Of a stretch of 64,000 bases of DNA, positions 22,746 through 41,843 are shown one piece after another. The DNA comes from Gemella sp. zg-570 (GTDB lineage Bacteria > Bacillota > Bacilli > Staphylococcales > Gemellaceae). The first letter of the stretch is position 1. Each line of letters opens with the position of its first letter. Where the stretch lies: the NCBI RefSeq assembly GCF_018866345.1, contig NZ_CP076443.1, forward strand, positions 1,449,501 through 1,513,500, read 5' to 3'. The notes under the pieces were generated by a model that was given only the letters and a program-made list of their open reading frames with translations, made no database searches and had not been told where the DNA came from. Made by a program: the position numbers and the translations under genes.

Positions 22746-23279
22746 ATGAAAATTCTACTAGCATATTCATCAAAAACTAAAAATACAAAAAAAGTTGCTC
22801 TAGCCATGTATTAAAGTATAAAAGATAGGTATGAAGTAGATATTTATGACATTAGAAAAGTTAAAAAAACATTGACTGACTATGATTTATATATTTTGGG
22901 TTGCTGGGTCGACAAGGCTACAGTCAATAAAAATATGCAAAAATTTATTGCAGAACAAAAAATTGAGAAGAAAAAAGTTGCCCTCTTTATGACTTGCGGT
23001 CTGCCAAATTACCACTATCACGCAAAAGATTCCATAGACAACTATTTAAAATATATGCAAGAAAAAGATAATGAAATTTTAACAACTTTTATCTGTCAAG
23101 GAAAAATAGACCCCAAAATATTAATAGTTTTCAAATTTTTAACATGGCGAGAACCGAATTTTATTCATAAGATAGACCAACCTATGCTCTAATGGCTATA
23201 GGATTCTAAAGCTCACCCTGACAAAAATGATTTAGCCAATGCTAGTAGCTGGATTAAAAATTTACTTAGTGATAATTAA
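22746..23279 (+). pseudogene. Flavodoxin-family protein, broken by nonsense codons
   Basis: A 177-codon frame encodes MKILLAYSSKTKNTKKVALA (FMN phosphate-binding loop S-S-K-T-K-N-T), then YDLYILGCWVDKATVNK and KKVALFMTCGLPN, typical of the short flavodoxin family. It is interrupted in frame by TAA (22812-22814), TAA (23190-23192) and TAG (23199-23201). The last two fit CAA and CAG codons before DSKAHPDK. There are no frameshifts, so decay is recent. Its last codons are the first unit of the 22-bp repeat array. Confidence 0.88.
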
Positions 23280-23475
23280 AATATCATTCGCCGATAATTA
23301 AAATCTCATTTGTCGATAATTAAAATCTCATTTGTCGATAATTAAAATATCATTCGCTGATAATTAAAAAATCATTCGCTGATAATTAAAAAATCATTCG
23401 CTGATAATTAAAATATTATTCGCTGATAATTAAAATATTATTCGCTGATAACTAAAAATCTCATTTGCCGATAAT
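23271..23475 (+). repeat. 22-bp tandem repeat array, nine units
   Basis: The units read GATAATTAAAATATCATTCG plus CT or CC, with variants ATCTCATTTGTC and AAATCATTCGCT. The units start at 23271, 23293, 23315, 23337, 23359, 23381, 23403, 23425 and 23447, with a partial tenth. Adjacent identical pairs (2-3, 5-6, 7-8) suggest stepwise duplication. The period is not a multiple of three, so it is not coding. Each unit resembles the Fur-box region at 22668. Confidence 0.95.
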
Positions 23476-23515
23476 AAAAAAGACTATGATTAAAAATAAT
23501 CATAGTCTTAATTTT
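23476..23515 (-). terminator. Terminator of the metallothionein-like gene
   Basis: A perfect 11-bp stem GACTATGATTA/TAATCATAGTC has a 5-base loop, with a T-run on the minus strand. Confidence 0.9.
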
Positions 23516-23597
23516 ATGCCGCCTTCTGGCAACCACAGTCGCATTTTTCTTGGCAAGTACAACCTACTTTTTCACAACCACATTTACATTTTTCCAT
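23514..23597 (-). CDS. Metallothionein-like cysteine-rich peptide, 27 aa
   Basis: Translation gives 27 residues of which eight are Cys, starting MEKCKCGCEKVGCTC and ending CDCGCQKAA. The CxCxC and CxC clusters are the hallmark of metal-thiolate peptides binding Zn, Cu or Cd. It is short for a metallothionein, but all features of a real gene are present: GGAGGAAG 6 bases before ATG 23597, a consensus promoter TTGACA-17-TATAAT at 23639-23667, and a perfect terminator after the stop. A Zur-like half-site ATTACGA (23644-23650) abuts the -10. I recognise no exact family. Confidence 0.8.
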   Translation of the reverse strand: MEKCKCGCEKVGCTCQEKCDCGCQKAA

Positions 23598-23638
23598 ATT
23601 TTCTTCCTCCTACTAATTATTATTTTTATTGGATCTTT

Positions 23639-23697
23639 ATTATATTACGATTTATATTTTCTGTCAATACTTTTTCCTTTTAAAGAAATCATTACGA
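23639..23697 (-). promoter_or_regulatory. Metallothionein promoter with Zur-like half-sites
   Basis: TTGACA (revcomp 23662-23667), a 17-bp spacer and TATAAT (23639-23644) form a consensus promoter. ATTACGA lies at 23644-23650 in the spacer and again at 23691-23697, within AAATCATTACGATTT, and a TCGTAAT half-site is at 23736-23742. These match halves of the Zur consensus TCGTAATnATTACGA. Confidence 0.6.
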
Positions 23698-23798
23698 TTT
23701 ACTTTTTAAAACCCTTATTCCAAAAATTTTACAAATCGTAATAAAAAAGTTTTAAGTAAAATATAAAATTATATATTACAACTAAATCGGAATGGCTA

Positions 23799-29731: not shown

Positions 29732-30178
29732 CTAGCTACCTTGTTCTTCTCTACACTTACTACAAGTTCCGTAAATTGCTATGGTGTTGTCTTGAGTTGC
29801 AAAACCATATTCTTTGTCTACATAGGCTATGAGTTTATTGAATATAGGATTTTGAACTGTTTGAACGCCATGGCAACAAGTACAAATTAAATGGTGGTGC
29901 ATACCTGGTGTTACTTTTTGGCGAAGATGATATTTTGCAATACCATTGCCGAATGTTATTTTTTCTAAGATATTTAAGTCGTAAAATATATCTAAAGTTC
30001 TATATACTGTTGCTAAACCGATATCTGGATTAACTTCTTTTAAGATAAAATATAATTCTTCAGCACTAAGATGTTCTTTGCTATTTTCTACAAGAACTTT
30101 TACTATAACTTCTCTTTGTGGTGTTAGTTTATAGGTTGATTCTTGTAAAGTCTTTATTATATCTTTATAGATAGTCAT
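29732..30178 (-). CDS. Fur-family metal-responsive regulator
   Basis: This 148-residue repressor has an N-terminal winged helix (LTPQREVIVKVLVENSKEHL and IGLATVYRTLDIFYDL) and a C-terminal metal domain. The latter contains GMHHHLICTCCHGV and a final CSKCREE, the two CxxC pairs of a structural zinc site. Fur, Zur and PerR cannot be separated from this alone. The Zur-like boxes upstream of the zinc operon and metallothionein gene and the Fur-like box at 22668 are candidate targets in the same window. It overlaps the Nudix gene stop by 4 bases. Confidence 0.93.
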   Translation of the reverse strand: MTIYKDIIKTLQESTYKLTPQREVIVKVLVENSKEHLSAEELYFILKEVNPDIGLATVYRTLDIFYDLNILEKITFGNGIAKYHLRQKVTPGMHHHLICTCCHGVQTVQNPIFNKLIAYVDKEYGFATQDNTIAIYGTCSKCREEQGS

Positions 30179-37323: not shown

Positions 37324-37552
37324 AACACTCTCCTTATTGTTAAAATAATTTTCTTTCTTTAATTATAGCAGAGAAATTTTAAAAATTATATTTTAAACTG
37401 GAATATTTGCGATTAACTATTTTATGAATTTTAAAAATTAATTTTTTTTAAATTTCTTTACTTATAAATTTTTTTATTTTGAAATTTTGTTTTACTCATA
37501 AAAATTTTTATTTTAAATTTTTTCTTGCATTTTATATTTTTTTGAATTAAAA

Positions 37553-37567
37553 TAGTAATCATTACGA
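37553..37567 (+). promoter_or_regulatory. Zur-like operator of the zinc operon
   Basis: TAGTAATCATTACGA matches the Zur consensus TCGTAATnATTACGA at 14 of 15 positions. It lies 27 bases before the adcA-like start, and TTGAAT (37542-37547) just upstream may be the -35. Confidence 0.75.
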
Positions 37568-37593
37568 TTTATATTTTTAAAAGGGGTATTTAT

Positions 37594-38526
37594 ATGAAAA
37601 AAAAATTAAATATTTTTATGGGTATTTTACTTAGCGTCAGTCTTTTACTGGTTGGCTGCTCTAAAAATACCAGCACAAGTCAACCAAGTTCTGATAAAAA
37701 AATTATTTATACGAGCTTTTTTCCCGTTTATGATTTAACGAAACAAATTGTTGGGGATAAGATGGAAATAAAAAATATTATCAAGGGTAATCAAGAACCT
37801 CACGATTTTGAACTGCAAACAAAGGATATGAAAGAAATATCAAAAGCAGATTTAATTATTTTTAATGGGGCTAACATGGAAAATTTTATTGATGACTTGA
37901 AAATGGCTAGCAAGCAAGATGATAAATTTTTAGACTTATCACAGGGATTGACACTTTTAGAAAGTGGTAGCCTTGAAGAAAATTCAAAAAATGAACATCT
38001 TAGTATTAATCCGCACACTTGGTTAAGTGTTAAAAATGCTTTAATCGAACTTGATACAATTTATAAAAAAGTTGCATCTATTGACCCAGCAAATGAAGCT
38101 TACTACAAAAAAAATTTAGAAGTAGCAAGTAAAAATTTCAAACAACTAGATGAAAAATTTGAAAAAGAATTAGCAAAAGTTAAGAATAAAGAAAAATATT
38201 TTGTAGTTTCGCACGCAGCTTTTAATTATTTGGCAAATGATTACGGCTTAAAACAGGTAGCTATAACTGGTATATCGCCTGAAGATGAACCATCTGCTAA
38301 ACAATTAAAAACAATAGCCGATTTTGTAGAAAAACATAATATAAAAACTATTTTCTTTGAGGGTAAAACAACGCCAAAAGTAGCCCAAACCCTAGCAAAA
38401 AATACTAATACAAAAACTTCAACTCTCTACACTATGGAAAATCTGACAGATGATGAAGTTAAACTGGGTTATATAAAGTTAATGGAAATGAATTTAGAAG
38501 CCTTGGTGAGTTCTTTTGATGAATAG
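37594..38526 (+). CDS. adcA: Zinc ABC transporter substrate-binding lipoprotein
   Basis: This 310-residue lipoprotein of cluster A-I (ZnuA/AdcA type) has a signal ending LLLVGCSKN. Candidate metal ligands are His in QEPHDFELQ, His in INPHTWLSV, His in VVSHAAFNYLA and an acidic residue near FFEGKTT. The short linker between ligands lacks the long His-rich loop of many ZnuA proteins. It heads an operon of ATPase, permease and a histidine-triad lipoprotein under a Zur-like box, so zinc uptake is the likely role; manganese is less likely. Confidence 0.9.
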   Translation: MKKKLNIFMGILLSVSLLLVGCSKNTSTSQPSSDKKIIYTSFFPVYDLTKQIVGDKMEIKNIIKGNQEPHDFELQTKDMKEISKADLIIFNGANMENFIDDLKMASKQDDKFLDLSQGLTLLESGSLEENSKNEHLSINPHTWLSVKNALIELDTIYKKVASIDPANEAYYKKNLEVASKNFKQLDEKFEKELAKVKNKEKYFVVSHAAFNYLANDYGLKQVAITGISPEDEPSAKQLKTIADFVEKHNIKTIFFEGKTTPKVAQTLAKNTNTKTSTLYTMENLTDDEVKLGYIKLMEMNLEALVSSFDE

Positions 38527-39202
38527 AGTTATAGAAATAAAAAATTTAGATTTTACTTATGACAAGGAAAGTAAAAATTATATTTTTGAAAATCTGAATT
38601 TAGAAATATACAAAAATGAATTTGTTGCCCTTGTCGGAGAAAATGGTGTCGGCAAGTCTACCCTCTTAAAACTTATTTTAAATAACTTAAAAGCTACAAG
38701 TGGCGGGATAAAAATTTTTGAAAATGATGTAGAAGAAAAAAAACATTATCAAGAAATTTCCTATATTTCCCAAAATTCAGTAGCGAATTATCGCCACTTA
38801 CCTACTACTGTGGAAGAAGTCATCAAGCAACATTTAAAATTTTTGAAAAAAAAGCAGAATGTTGAAGACTATTTAAGGATAGTTGACCTTGAAAAAAAAG
38901 CAAAAAAATCTCTTGGTCAACTTTCTGGTGGCGAGTTGCAGAGGGTGGCAATATTATTAGCCTTAATTAAGGAAGCAAAATTAATTATCTTAGATGAACC
39001 AACATCAAATATTGATAAAAAATTTTCTAAGGAACTCTTTGCCCTCTTAAAAAATTTGGCAAGAGAAGATAAAACGATACTTATAGTAACCCACGATATT
39101 GAAGAAATAGTTAATTATGTTGACTACATCTTACAAATAAAAAATTGTCAGTGTCAAAGATTAGAAAAAATAAAATTTAAAGAGAGTTTGGGGAGATGTT
39201 AA
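38519..39202 (+). CDS. adcC: Zinc ABC transporter ATP-binding protein
   Basis: This 227-residue ATPase has Walker A VGENGVGKSTLLKL, signature LGQLSGGELQRVAIL, Walker B LIILDEPTSNID and H-loop VTHDIEE. It starts at ATG 38519, overlapping the adcA stop by 8 bases, and ends within the adcB start (TAATG). It powers import by the adjacent permease. Confidence 0.93.
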   Translation: MNRVIEIKNLDFTYDKESKNYIFENLNLEIYKNEFVALVGENGVGKSTLLKLILNNLKATSGGIKIFENDVEEKKHYQEISYISQNSVANYRHLPTTVEEVIKQHLKFLKKKQNVEDYLRIVDLEKKAKKSLGQLSGGELQRVAILLALIKEAKLIILDEPTSNIDKKFSKELFALLKNLAREDKTILIVTHDIEEIVNYVDYILQIKNCQCQRLEKIKFKESLGRC

Positions 39203-39993
39203 TGGAAATATTTTATTATGATTTTATGCGTAGAGCCTTCCTTGTTGGTGGCTTGTTAGCTATTATTCTTCCCTGTGTTGGTATGCCGATTTTATTAAAA
39301 AGATTGTCAGCCATGGGTGATACCCTCGCCCACTCATCTCTTGCTGGTGTTGCCATAGGACTTTGTTTGGGTATTAATCCCTTGCTCGGTTCCATTATAG
39401 CCTGTATTGTTGCGGGGCTAAGTATAGAATTTATTAGAAATAAATTAAAATCCTATCAAGAAATATCAACCGTCATAATTTTAGCAACTTCTATCGGTTT
39501 GGCAGGAATTTTTACCAGCTTTACCAATAATTCTAACTCGATAAGTTCCTACCTTTTTGGTTCTATTGTAACAATAAGTGATAGTGAATTTTATATAGTT
39601 ATAGTTATTTCTTTACTTGTCTTGCTAACTTATAAATTTATTTATACAAAATTATATTTAATAATTTTTGATGTCAGCAATGCAAAAATTTTAGGTATCA
39701 ATGTGAAATTTATAAATTTTATAGTAACGGTTCTGAGTGCCGCAGCAATTTCTGTATCTGCAAAAACTATCGGCTCTTTAATAGTATCATCACTGCTTAT
39801 TATTCCGACAATCTGTGCTATGCAAATTGCAAAAACTTATAAAAACACCTTGATATTGTCAATAATTTTATCAATGACCTTTGTATATTTAGGATTATTT
39901 ATTTCCTATTTTTACAACTTAAAACCTGGTTCAGTGATTGTATTATTGTCAGTTATCTGCTTGATAGTAATTATTTTAATAAAAAAGAAATAA
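39202..39993 (+). CDS. adcB: Zinc ABC transporter permease
   Basis: This 263-residue ABC-3 family membrane protein has about eight helices. It includes LPCVGMPILLKRLSAMGDTL and AHSSLAGVAIG, the conserved cytoplasmic coupling region, and TIGSLIVSSLLIIPTICAMQ near the C-terminus. I start at ATG 39202, spaced 7 bases after GGGGAG, rather than ATG 39196. It shares one base with the adcC stop. Confidence 0.92.
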   Translation: MEIFYYDFMRRAFLVGGLLAIILPCVGMPILLKRLSAMGDTLAHSSLAGVAIGLCLGINPLLGSIIACIVAGLSIEFIRNKLKSYQEISTVIILATSIGLAGIFTSFTNNSNSISSYLFGSIVTISDSEFYIVIVISLLVLLTYKFIYTKLYLIIFDVSNAKILGINVKFINFIVTVLSAAAISVSAKTIGSLIVSSLLIIPTICAMQIAKTYKNTLILSIILSMTFVYLGLFISYFYNLKPGSVIVLLSVICLIVIILIKKK

Positions 39994-40004
39994 AGGAGTA
40001 AAAT

Positions 40005-41843
40005 ATGAAAAATAAAAAACAATTTTTAGTAGTTAATATGGTTTTAGTATCTACCTTGTTATTATCTGCTTGTGGTAATAATAAAAAAAATGAAGATGAA
40101 GTAAAAAATAATAAGACTGATTATGTAGAAAAAAATAAAAAGTATGTAAAAGATAATACTACTGAAGTATTAATAGACAGTCCTAATGTTAAAAAAGAAG
40201 ATATTACAAAAATAATTAAGCACGGCGACCACTGGCACATTTTTACTAAAGATGGTAAGGAGCATATAACTTATACTGACCCAACTAAGACTAACGATAA
40301 TAATTTTTCTTTGGTTAGTGTCGTGTCATTAAATCAATTAAAAGGTTTGAATATTGCTTCTATAAAAGTACATGGCGACCACTGGCACGTTTATACGAGT
40401 GATGGGCGAGAATTTTTAACATACGAAAATCCAAGTTCCCTATTTTCTAATTTGGCTATTGAAGAATATGTTGGTTCGCACTCTCCAGTTGCAAATCCTA
40501 CAACAAGTTATGTGAGTAATCCAATCATAAATGAAGAAAATAAAGAAAATAAAGATGAAGTAATAAAAATATTAGTACATGGCGACCACTACCATATTTA
40601 TACAGCTAGCGGCAAAGAATTTGTTAGTTACTCTGACCCTAGACACCTGTATCCTAATGCTGAATTTGGTGTCTATGCAGGAAGCCATGAAAATCATAAC
40701 AAGCCAGCTGAAAATTCAAATTCTGAAAGTAATAATAATTCTGCTTCTGTAAATAATAGTAATTCAAATTCAGTAAGTGAAAATAATTCTGCTTCTGTAA
40801 ATAATAGTAATTCAAGTTCGGTAAATGAAAATAATTCTAGTTCTGCTGGTTCAGAAAATAATAATTCAGCCAATAACAACAATTCAAATTCTGTAAATAA
40901 TATACCTGAAGAAGATGAACACTCTGGACTTATCAGCGTCTTGTCAGCCGATGAAATAAAAGCCTTAAAAAACATTACAAAAATTTTAAAACATAATGAC
41001 CATTATCATATCTACACAGCTGATAAGAAAGAATACATAACTTATGCTGACCCATCAGATATTTTTTCTGGTATAGGAGATTATGCAGACAAGGATAAAG
41101 AAAATAATAATGTTTCCGATAAACCAACAGAAAATATTTCTTGGCCAAGTGGCATAACAAAAATAGTTGACCATAGCGACCACTGGCACCTATATGCAGG
41201 CAGTAAAGAAGTTGCTGTTGTTAAAACAAATCCAAAAGAACATTATCCCGACGCTGAATACATATTAGAAGATGATGACGACTTAGATGATGTACATTTA
41301 AACGAAAATGAAATTATCAGATATGAAGATGTTGAAGAAAGATTAGTAGAATCTGTAATTCCTTATCTGTCTACCAACCTAAAAGCCATGACTAATTTTG
41401 GTAATTTAGAAAATCCTACTTCAGCAGTTTTTGGTTCTAACGGTGCTACAGAAAATATATTCTACTGGTTGCATGGCGACCACTATCATGCTGAAAGTCT
41501 AATAGACCTAATTAAAAAAGTTAAAGAGGGAACTTTTGGTAATAATTCAGCAGAAGATGTAATTGCGACTATGAAATATATAGTAAATCACCCAGACAAT
41601 AAAGAAGAATATTTGCGTGTTAAAATAAAACTTGATGTGAAAAAAATTCAAAGATTTTTAATGAAAGCATATAATCTTGATGCAAGTGATGTCTTTAGAC
41701 TTGGAAATTCATTTGATGTCTATAAAAATGGCCAAACAAAAACTTTTAATATCTCAGAATTTACAGAAGAGAATAATGAAATTAAGTATATTAATGGTGA
41801 ACTGCCACAATTTAAAAAAGCAAGTGAAACTTCTAATGACTAA
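40005..41843 (+). CDS. Histidine-triad (Pht-like) surface lipoprotein
   Basis: This 612-residue protein has a lipoprotein signal (LLLSACGNN). Six HxxHxH-type zinc triads follow: HGDHWHIF, HGDHWHVY, HGDHYHIY, HNDHYHIY, HSDHWHLY and HGDHYHAE. Most lie before a Tyr/Asp-Pro segment like those of streptococcal Pht proteins. A low-complexity Ser/Asn linker (about residues 240-300, 40720-40905) splits the triads. The acidic stretch EDDDDLDDVHL and a helical C-terminal domain follow. In streptococci Pht proteins scavenge zinc for AdcA-type importers; here the gene is 11 bases behind adcB in the same Zur-boxed operon. No sortase motif is seen. Confidence 0.9.
   Translation: MKNKKQFLVVNMVLVSTLLLSACGNNKKNEDEVKNNKTDYVEKNKKYVKDNTTEVLIDSPNVKKEDITKIIKHGDHWHIFTKDGKEHITYTDPTKTNDNNFSLVSVVSLNQLKGLNIASIKVHGDHWHVYTSDGREFLTYENPSSLFSNLAIEEYVGSHSPVANPTTSYVSNPIINEENKENKDEVIKILVHGDHYHIYTASGKEFVSYSDPRHLYPNAEFGVYAGSHENHNKPAENSNSESNNNSASVNNSNSNSVSENNSASVNNSNSSSVNENNSSSAGSENNNSANNNNSNSVNNIPEEDEHSGLISVLSADEIKALKNITKILKHNDHYHIYTADKKEYITYADPSDIFSGIGDYADKDKENNNVSDKPTENISWPSGITKIVDHSDHWHLYAGSKEVAVVKTNPKEHYPDAEYILEDDDDLDDVHLNENEIIRYEDVEERLVESVIPYLSTNLKAMTNFGNLENPTSAVFGSNGATENIFYWLHGDHYHAESLIDLIKKVKEGTFGNNSAEDVIATMKYIVNHPDNKEEYLRVKIKLDVKKIQRFLMKAYNLDASDVFRLGNSFDVYKNGQTKTFNISEFTEENNEIKYINGELPQFKKASETSND

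Follow-up and report, generated by a model that had tools for sequence, protein, structure and literature searches.

Few bacterial metallothioneins have been studied; functions have been described for SmtA and MymT, and metallothioneins of Pseudomonas are also covered (PMC7387436). Activation of a metallothionein by Zur has been documented in a marine cyanobacterium, its mechanism being unexplained: in Synechococcus WH8102, bmtA is activated by zinc-loaded Zur (Zn-Zur) and has two Zur boxes, one of them beyond the −35 hexamer (PMC9337993). Zn-Zur also activates the Streptomyces zinc exporter gene zitB via sites upstream of −35 (PMC6103462, PMC11077047); in S. coelicolor, the proximal footprint covers −78 to −40, with binding reaching as far as about −140 (PMC11077047). 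For B. anthracis, a pair of Zur boxes located upstream of −35 was likewise interpreted as pointing to positive regulation (PMC6336718). The subject here is the gene of a metallothionein-like peptide of 27 residues, MEKCKCGCEKVGCTCQEKCDCGCQKAA, at positions 23514..23597 on the minus strand of a 64,000-nucleotide stretch of Gemella sp. zg-570 (NZ_CP076443.1, positions 1,449,501 to 1,513,500). This stretch, hereafter called the window, comes from a genome of 1.56 Mb on a single contig.

The best reading of the gene, held with a probability of about 0.6, is that it encodes a zinc-buffering metallothionein activated by Zn-Zur; we infer Zur binding, the activation and zinc as the bound metal. Activation is favoured because the conserved Zur-like site lies upstream of −35 and because of the zitB, bmtA and B. 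anthracis precedents. The closest likeness is to BmtA/SmtA of Synechococcus WH8102, a small Cys-rich zinc-storing protein with two Zur sites at its promoter, one beyond −35, in a genome that represses znuABC via a box over the −10 hexamer (PMC9337993). The window peptide belongs to another lineage and shows no recognisable homology to BmtA/SmtA (no Pfam match at E ≤ 10). It has one unit of eight Cys without His, and its promoter carries AAATCGTAAT half-sites in place of the cyanobacterial box. With S. coelicolor zitB the locus shares a Zur-like site upstream of −35 plus further upstream sites, the proximal footprint of zitB being near the position predicted here. Unlike the window gene, zitB encodes an exporter and carries the actinobacterial box; its own mechanism is oligomerisation. 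The combination of Zur-like half-sites with a metallothionein is, as far as found, new for the Gemellaceae lineage and for this protein family.

The peptide gene and its expression signals

The peptide consists of a single CxCGC-x4-CxC-x3-CxCGC unit with a length of 20 residues. A sequence-only reading had placed the gene at 23514-23597, which is correct, and had left the minus strand unstated; the plus-strand frame of this interval was rejected, as it reads LCRLLATT... and is meaningless. The expression signals named in that reading were all located on the minus strand. The Shine-Dalgarno sequence AGGAGG is found at 23606..23611, 8 nt before the ATG. The sigma-70 promoter TTGACA-17-TATAAT at 23667..23639 matches the consensus in 12 of 12 positions, is the top scorer among the promoter-like sites of the region and keeps its position in nearly all homologues. 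An intrinsic terminator at 23473..23509 comprises a stem-loop at 23509..23480, with a 13-bp stem of just 3 G-C pairs and a loop of 4 nt, and a T tract. Promoter, ribosome binding site and terminator around the gene are conserved.

Among the open reading frames of 20 to 60 codons in the window, the 8-Cys peptide alone contains six or more Cys. Shuffling the 64 kb 60 times with dinucleotides preserved produced one 8-Cys open reading frame in total, corresponding to about 1.7% per window, a figure that ignores promoter, ribosome binding site and homologues. A chance open reading frame was rejected in this comparison. Translation, homologues and shuffles agree with the earlier claim of a real gene with CxCxC clusters, and the 27-residue peptide is accordingly regarded as the product of a genuine gene. 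Its composition has the general traits of a metallothionein: 27 residues, 30% Cys (8), at least four CxC motifs and not a single F, W, Y or H.

A modular family in Gemellaceae

In a search with a profile of the unit, homologues were found in 13 of 15 Gemellaceae genomes, i.e., in the window's own (G000) and in 12 of the 14 others compared (G001-G014). The homologue search had been set in advance as the refutation test, and conserved Cys spacing was recovered in all 12. The order set of 157 genomes gave no homologue in the remaining 144, and sampled genomes of the class (398) and phylum (398) gave none beyond the window's own; the figures for order and family refer to the genomes compared, those for class and phylum to a sampling. 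Plasmids and viral contigs contained no relatives of the peptide, thus there is no evidence of a mobile origin. A full-length alignment search of related loci returned matches in Gemella only, the named species being G. haemolysans, G. cuniculi, G. bergeri and G. sanguinis. As far as found, the predicted family is confined to Gemella and its relatives.

The complete unit reads C-x-C-G-(x)-C-x4-C-x-C-x3-C-x-C-x-C, followed by H in most units. Nine Gemella-type genomes encode a protein of 63 residues with 17 Cys and 7 His. The homologues from the window's own genus have 2-3 tandem units, 49-82 residues and 16-24 Cys: two units in 49 residues (G003), and three units with 24 Cys in proteins of 82 (G004) and 80 residues (G005). 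The window peptide bears both marks of this tandem-unit family, the unit pattern and the conserved locus, and shares the promoter element with the multi-unit homologues of G003-G014; it differs from them by its single unit and the absence of His. The earlier description as a very small metallothionein-like peptide is supported in this sense, and the peptide is not an isolated tiny family: it is the one-unit ortholog of the 2-3-unit family and looks like the result of a contraction.

When seven other units were compared with that of the window, all eight Cys were kept in each, with 2-4 synonymous TGT/TGC changes per unit, while only 1-5 of the 12 non-Cys residues were identical. Complete retention of Cys, synonymous drift of their codons and change in most other residues together indicate that the Cys are under purifying selection, so that a Cys pattern selected across homologues, as in the metallothionein class, is observed here as well.

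Curated models did not recognise these proteins. No NCBIfam match was obtained for the window peptide at E ≤ 10, and neither a Pfam nor an NCBIfam match for the 80-82-residue homologues at E ≤ 1. Pfam Metallothio_Pro, the SmtA/BmtA family, and the other curated prokaryotic metallothionein models matched neither the window peptide nor the long homologues. The unit profile retrieved no chain among solved structures at E ≤ 10, and a literature search found no paper on a Gemella metallothionein. The Gemella homologues may already be named in RefSeq annotation.

Locus and probable contraction to one unit

In G004, as in the window, the gene is flanked by a flavodoxin gene on one side and a lipase-like gene on the other, in exactly the same position. 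A lipase-like gene lies directly upstream of the metallothionein gene in G000, G003 and G004, in G003 on the same strand. No homologue was detected in G001 or G002, the two Gemellaceae genomes without the gene; in G002 the flavodoxin and lipase-like genes adjoin with a gap of about 130 bp and no metallothionein gene between them.

The start of the window peptide resembles the first unit of its relatives (M-x-KCKCGCEK, with nothing between CG and C), and its end resembles the last unit of G004 (CDCGC[H/Q]KAA*). Because all other members have at least two units, the simplest history is that recombination between repeats removed units. We infer the joint of a first-unit start to a last-unit end from these residues, the nucleotide similarity of the two halves being too low to serve as proof.

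Separately, the flavodoxin-like gene of the window (22746-23267, plus strand) has 67% identity to its G004 homologue, no frameshift and three in-frame stops; it may be a pseudogene or otherwise unusual.

Zur-like half-sites at the promoter

The promoter region contains three exact AAATCGTAAT half-sites in a span of 100 bp (23644-23653, 23691-23700 and 23733-23742). In the 64 kb, four exact copies were observed as opposed to 0.33 expected, the fourth being within a near-canonical Zur box. The sequence-only reading had described Zur-like half-sites over the promoter. One is indeed located there, between −35 and −10 (23644..23653, minus strand), at a position not common to most relatives: among them it occurs only in G004, in opposite orientation. 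That description was correct but incomplete, since two more lie upstream of it; the conserved half-site is the nearer of these, upstream of −35. It is part of the promoter-proximal site AAATCGTAATGATTTCTTTAA (23680..23700, minus strand), composed of one perfect and one degenerate half, whose position is kept in all Gemella homologues and G004. The third, distal half-site has the opposite orientation (23733..23742, plus strand); on the coding strand it reads ATTACGATTT and forms part of the arrangement ATTACGATTT-N32-AAATCGTAAT.

In the window the proximal half-site begins 33 bp upstream of −35, with the centre of the site at about −57 from the predicted transcription start; all distances to the start are predictions from the hexamers. 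The spacing of 32-33 bp to −35 is common to the window, G004 and all nine Gemella genomes. The half-site is exact in G000, G004 and six Gemella genomes, has one mismatch in G013 and two mismatches in G006 and G012. The pattern TCGTAAT-N18..27-TTGAC-N17..19-TANAAT occurs exactly once in 10 of the 15 genomes, always at the metallothionein gene, and its reversed form, used as a control, gave no match in the 15 genomes. The paired arrangement ATTACGATTT-N5..35-AAATCGTAAT was found as one copy each in 6 genomes, again always at this gene. Measured from centre to centre, the paired sites are 30, 31, 43 and 53 bp apart, close to whole helical turns; this regularity is suggestive and was recognised post hoc. 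Compared with the 9-1-9 inverted-repeat Zur box, the three half-sites at the gene are exact and their second halves degenerate.

The metallothionein gene of G003 carries none of the half-sites, and no Fur-family protein was detected in this genome (96% complete); G003 is thus a putative natural control for the link between Zur and the sites. At the promoter of the G014 gene (L017), both Zur-like sites belong to one long inverted repeat, AGTAACTATTACGATTTA-N7-TAAATCGTAATAGTTACT, which suggests that AAATCGTAATAGTTACT may be the whole protein-binding unit.

The Zur ortholog and the zinc-uptake operon

Two Fur-family proteins are encoded in the window's genome. The one inside the window (29732-30178) has Bacillus-type Fur as its best NCBIfam match, below the curated cut-off. 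The second (L088, G000:C1:1029245-1029601) has an invariant hinge Cys89, no equivalent of His37 and two CxxC motifs. An invariant hinge Cys in place of the O-donor and the lack of a His37 equivalent form the Zur signature (PMC4866751), and L088 is the Zur ortholog, distinct from the Fur at 29732-30178. G001 and G003, both of the same genus and 96-97% complete, yielded no Fur-family protein, in contrast to all other near-complete relatives, each of which encodes Fur and Zur as a minimum. The absence of Zur in G005 means little, because two genomes of the genus are only 66-72% complete.

Near-canonical 9-1-9 boxes in these genomes precede znuA/adcA-like and histidine-triad genes, as expected for Zur. 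In the window, the box AAATAGTAATCATTACGATTT (37550..37570, plus strand; one mismatch to 9-1-9) overlaps the predicted −10 of a zinc-uptake operon, whose promoter TTGCAT-17-TAAAAT was predicted at 37525-37530 and 37548-37553. This placement over the −10 corresponds to a repression geometry at znuA as judged from the predicted promoter. The operon at 37594..41843 (plus strand) comprises genes for ZnuA/AdcA-like, ZnuC-like and ZnuB-like proteins and a histidine-triad lipoprotein, and is presumed to be repressed by Zur. The best NCBIfam matches of the uptake genes are the zinc AztC/AztB and zinc ABC families, below the equivalog cut-offs.

Proposed regulation and alternative explanations

In the proposed mechanism, the peptide would descend from a Gemellaceae metallothionein that has two to three units in relatives, a repeat contraction having fused the beginning of unit one with the final part of the last unit. 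The thiolates of its 20-residue unit would enclose about 2-3 Zn(II) or several Cu(I), and as a minimal cytosolic metallothionein it would buffer or store zinc. When zinc is plentiful, Zn-loaded Zur would occupy the half-sites upstream of −35 and aid initiation by RNA polymerase, and would meanwhile turn off the znu/histidine-triad operon at 37.5 kb via the box over its −10. The predicted sites at the metallothionein gene (−67..−47 and −120..−100) are near the footprint positions of zitB. The sequence-only reading had found a storage peptide with Zur sites unexpected for a regulator that represses; this overlooks the activation of bmtA (PMC9337993) and zitB (PMC6103462, PMC11077047), and with the position of the site and these precedents the paradox is resolved. 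The wider proposal is a lineage-specific modular metallothionein family of Bacilli, activated directly by Zn-Zur from a conserved, non-canonical array of outward-facing half-sites spaced by about whole helical turns, with one sensor for uptake and storage, and shrunk here to 27 residues, perhaps the smallest natural bacterial metallothionein. Its chance of holding in full is put at slightly below even.

Several observations weigh against activation by Zn-Zur. The upstream sites keep one good half of the 9-1-9 box, whereas positions known to be critical in B. subtilis are degenerate in the second half. The G005 promoter has only degenerate half-sites, and G002 has Zur and no metallothionein gene. 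A single 8-Cys, His-free unit would bind less metal than the relatives, and the gene could be dying out. The additional half-site that the window and G004 carry between −35 and −10 could block RNA polymerase, and this position speaks for the same metallothionein being ordinarily repressed by Zur and made only in zinc starvation, e.g., to hold or pass on scarce zinc. Zur mostly represses (PMC6103462). Such repression is nevertheless unlikely: half-sites with one mismatch or none are absent between −35 and −10 in all Gemella promoters, the conserved site being upstream of −35; the genome's real box of the repressed type is near-canonical and lies over the znuA −10; and it would make little physiological sense to produce a zinc-sequestering peptide when zinc is scarce. 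Alternatively, Zur whose sensing site is empty of zinc could bind and repress at low zinc, as reported for Zur-dependent efflux genes of Corynebacterium glutamicum. The Zur site there is non-canonical (PMC6103462), as are those of the metallothionein gene, but it is a 10-1-10 direct repeat over −35, as opposed to a conserved site upstream of −35 and inverted, widely spaced pairs of half-sites, which leaves this reading very improbable.

The peptide might also serve chiefly against copper, cadmium or redox stress, with its sites read by another regulator. Short units of 7-8 Cys, among them that of Neurospora, are Cu-thioneins (PMC4755600), and the window unit is His-free like these. Fungal Cu-metallothioneins have a CxC unit of 25-26 residues, single in Neurospora and in tandem in Cryptococcus and Tremella (PMC4755600); their units, [CXC]-X5-[CXC]-X3-[CXC]-X2-C, have seven Cys and bind copper, whereas that of the window, CXCXC-X4-CXC-X3-CXCXC, has eight, and no homology is claimed. 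As the Gemella versions have 7 His, more typical of zinc proteins, and the half-site is the B. subtilis-type Zur half-site common to zinc-uptake genes of the same genomes, a role centred on these stresses is decidedly unlikely. A functionless, decaying remnant of a longer metallothionein would account for the cut from 2-3 units to one, the absence of the gene in G001 and G002 and the three in-frame stops of the adjoining flavodoxin-like gene, a probable pseudogene. It is hardly compatible with an intact start, Shine-Dalgarno sequence, 12/12 promoter, upstream site, terminator and all eight Cys, the codons of which differ from the relatives only synonymously, and is considered the most improbable of the explanations weighed here.

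The family of one to three units, the once-per-genome site and the relatives without Fur-family genes form a natural series for the minimal metal cluster and for the geometry of activation. Gemella are common human commensals. Zinc buffering by this family would matter for the way in which they cope with excess zinc and with zinc withholding by the host.

Repeats in the window

Directly 3′ of the metallothionein terminator, about 10 head-to-tail 22-bp repeats with a consensus of about ATTAAAAATTTATTCGCTGATA occupy 23253-23481; no further close copies were found elsewhere in the genome. In the histidine-triad gene of the zinc-uptake operon, repeats of 24/48 bp at 40713-40902 encode an Asn/Ser linker.
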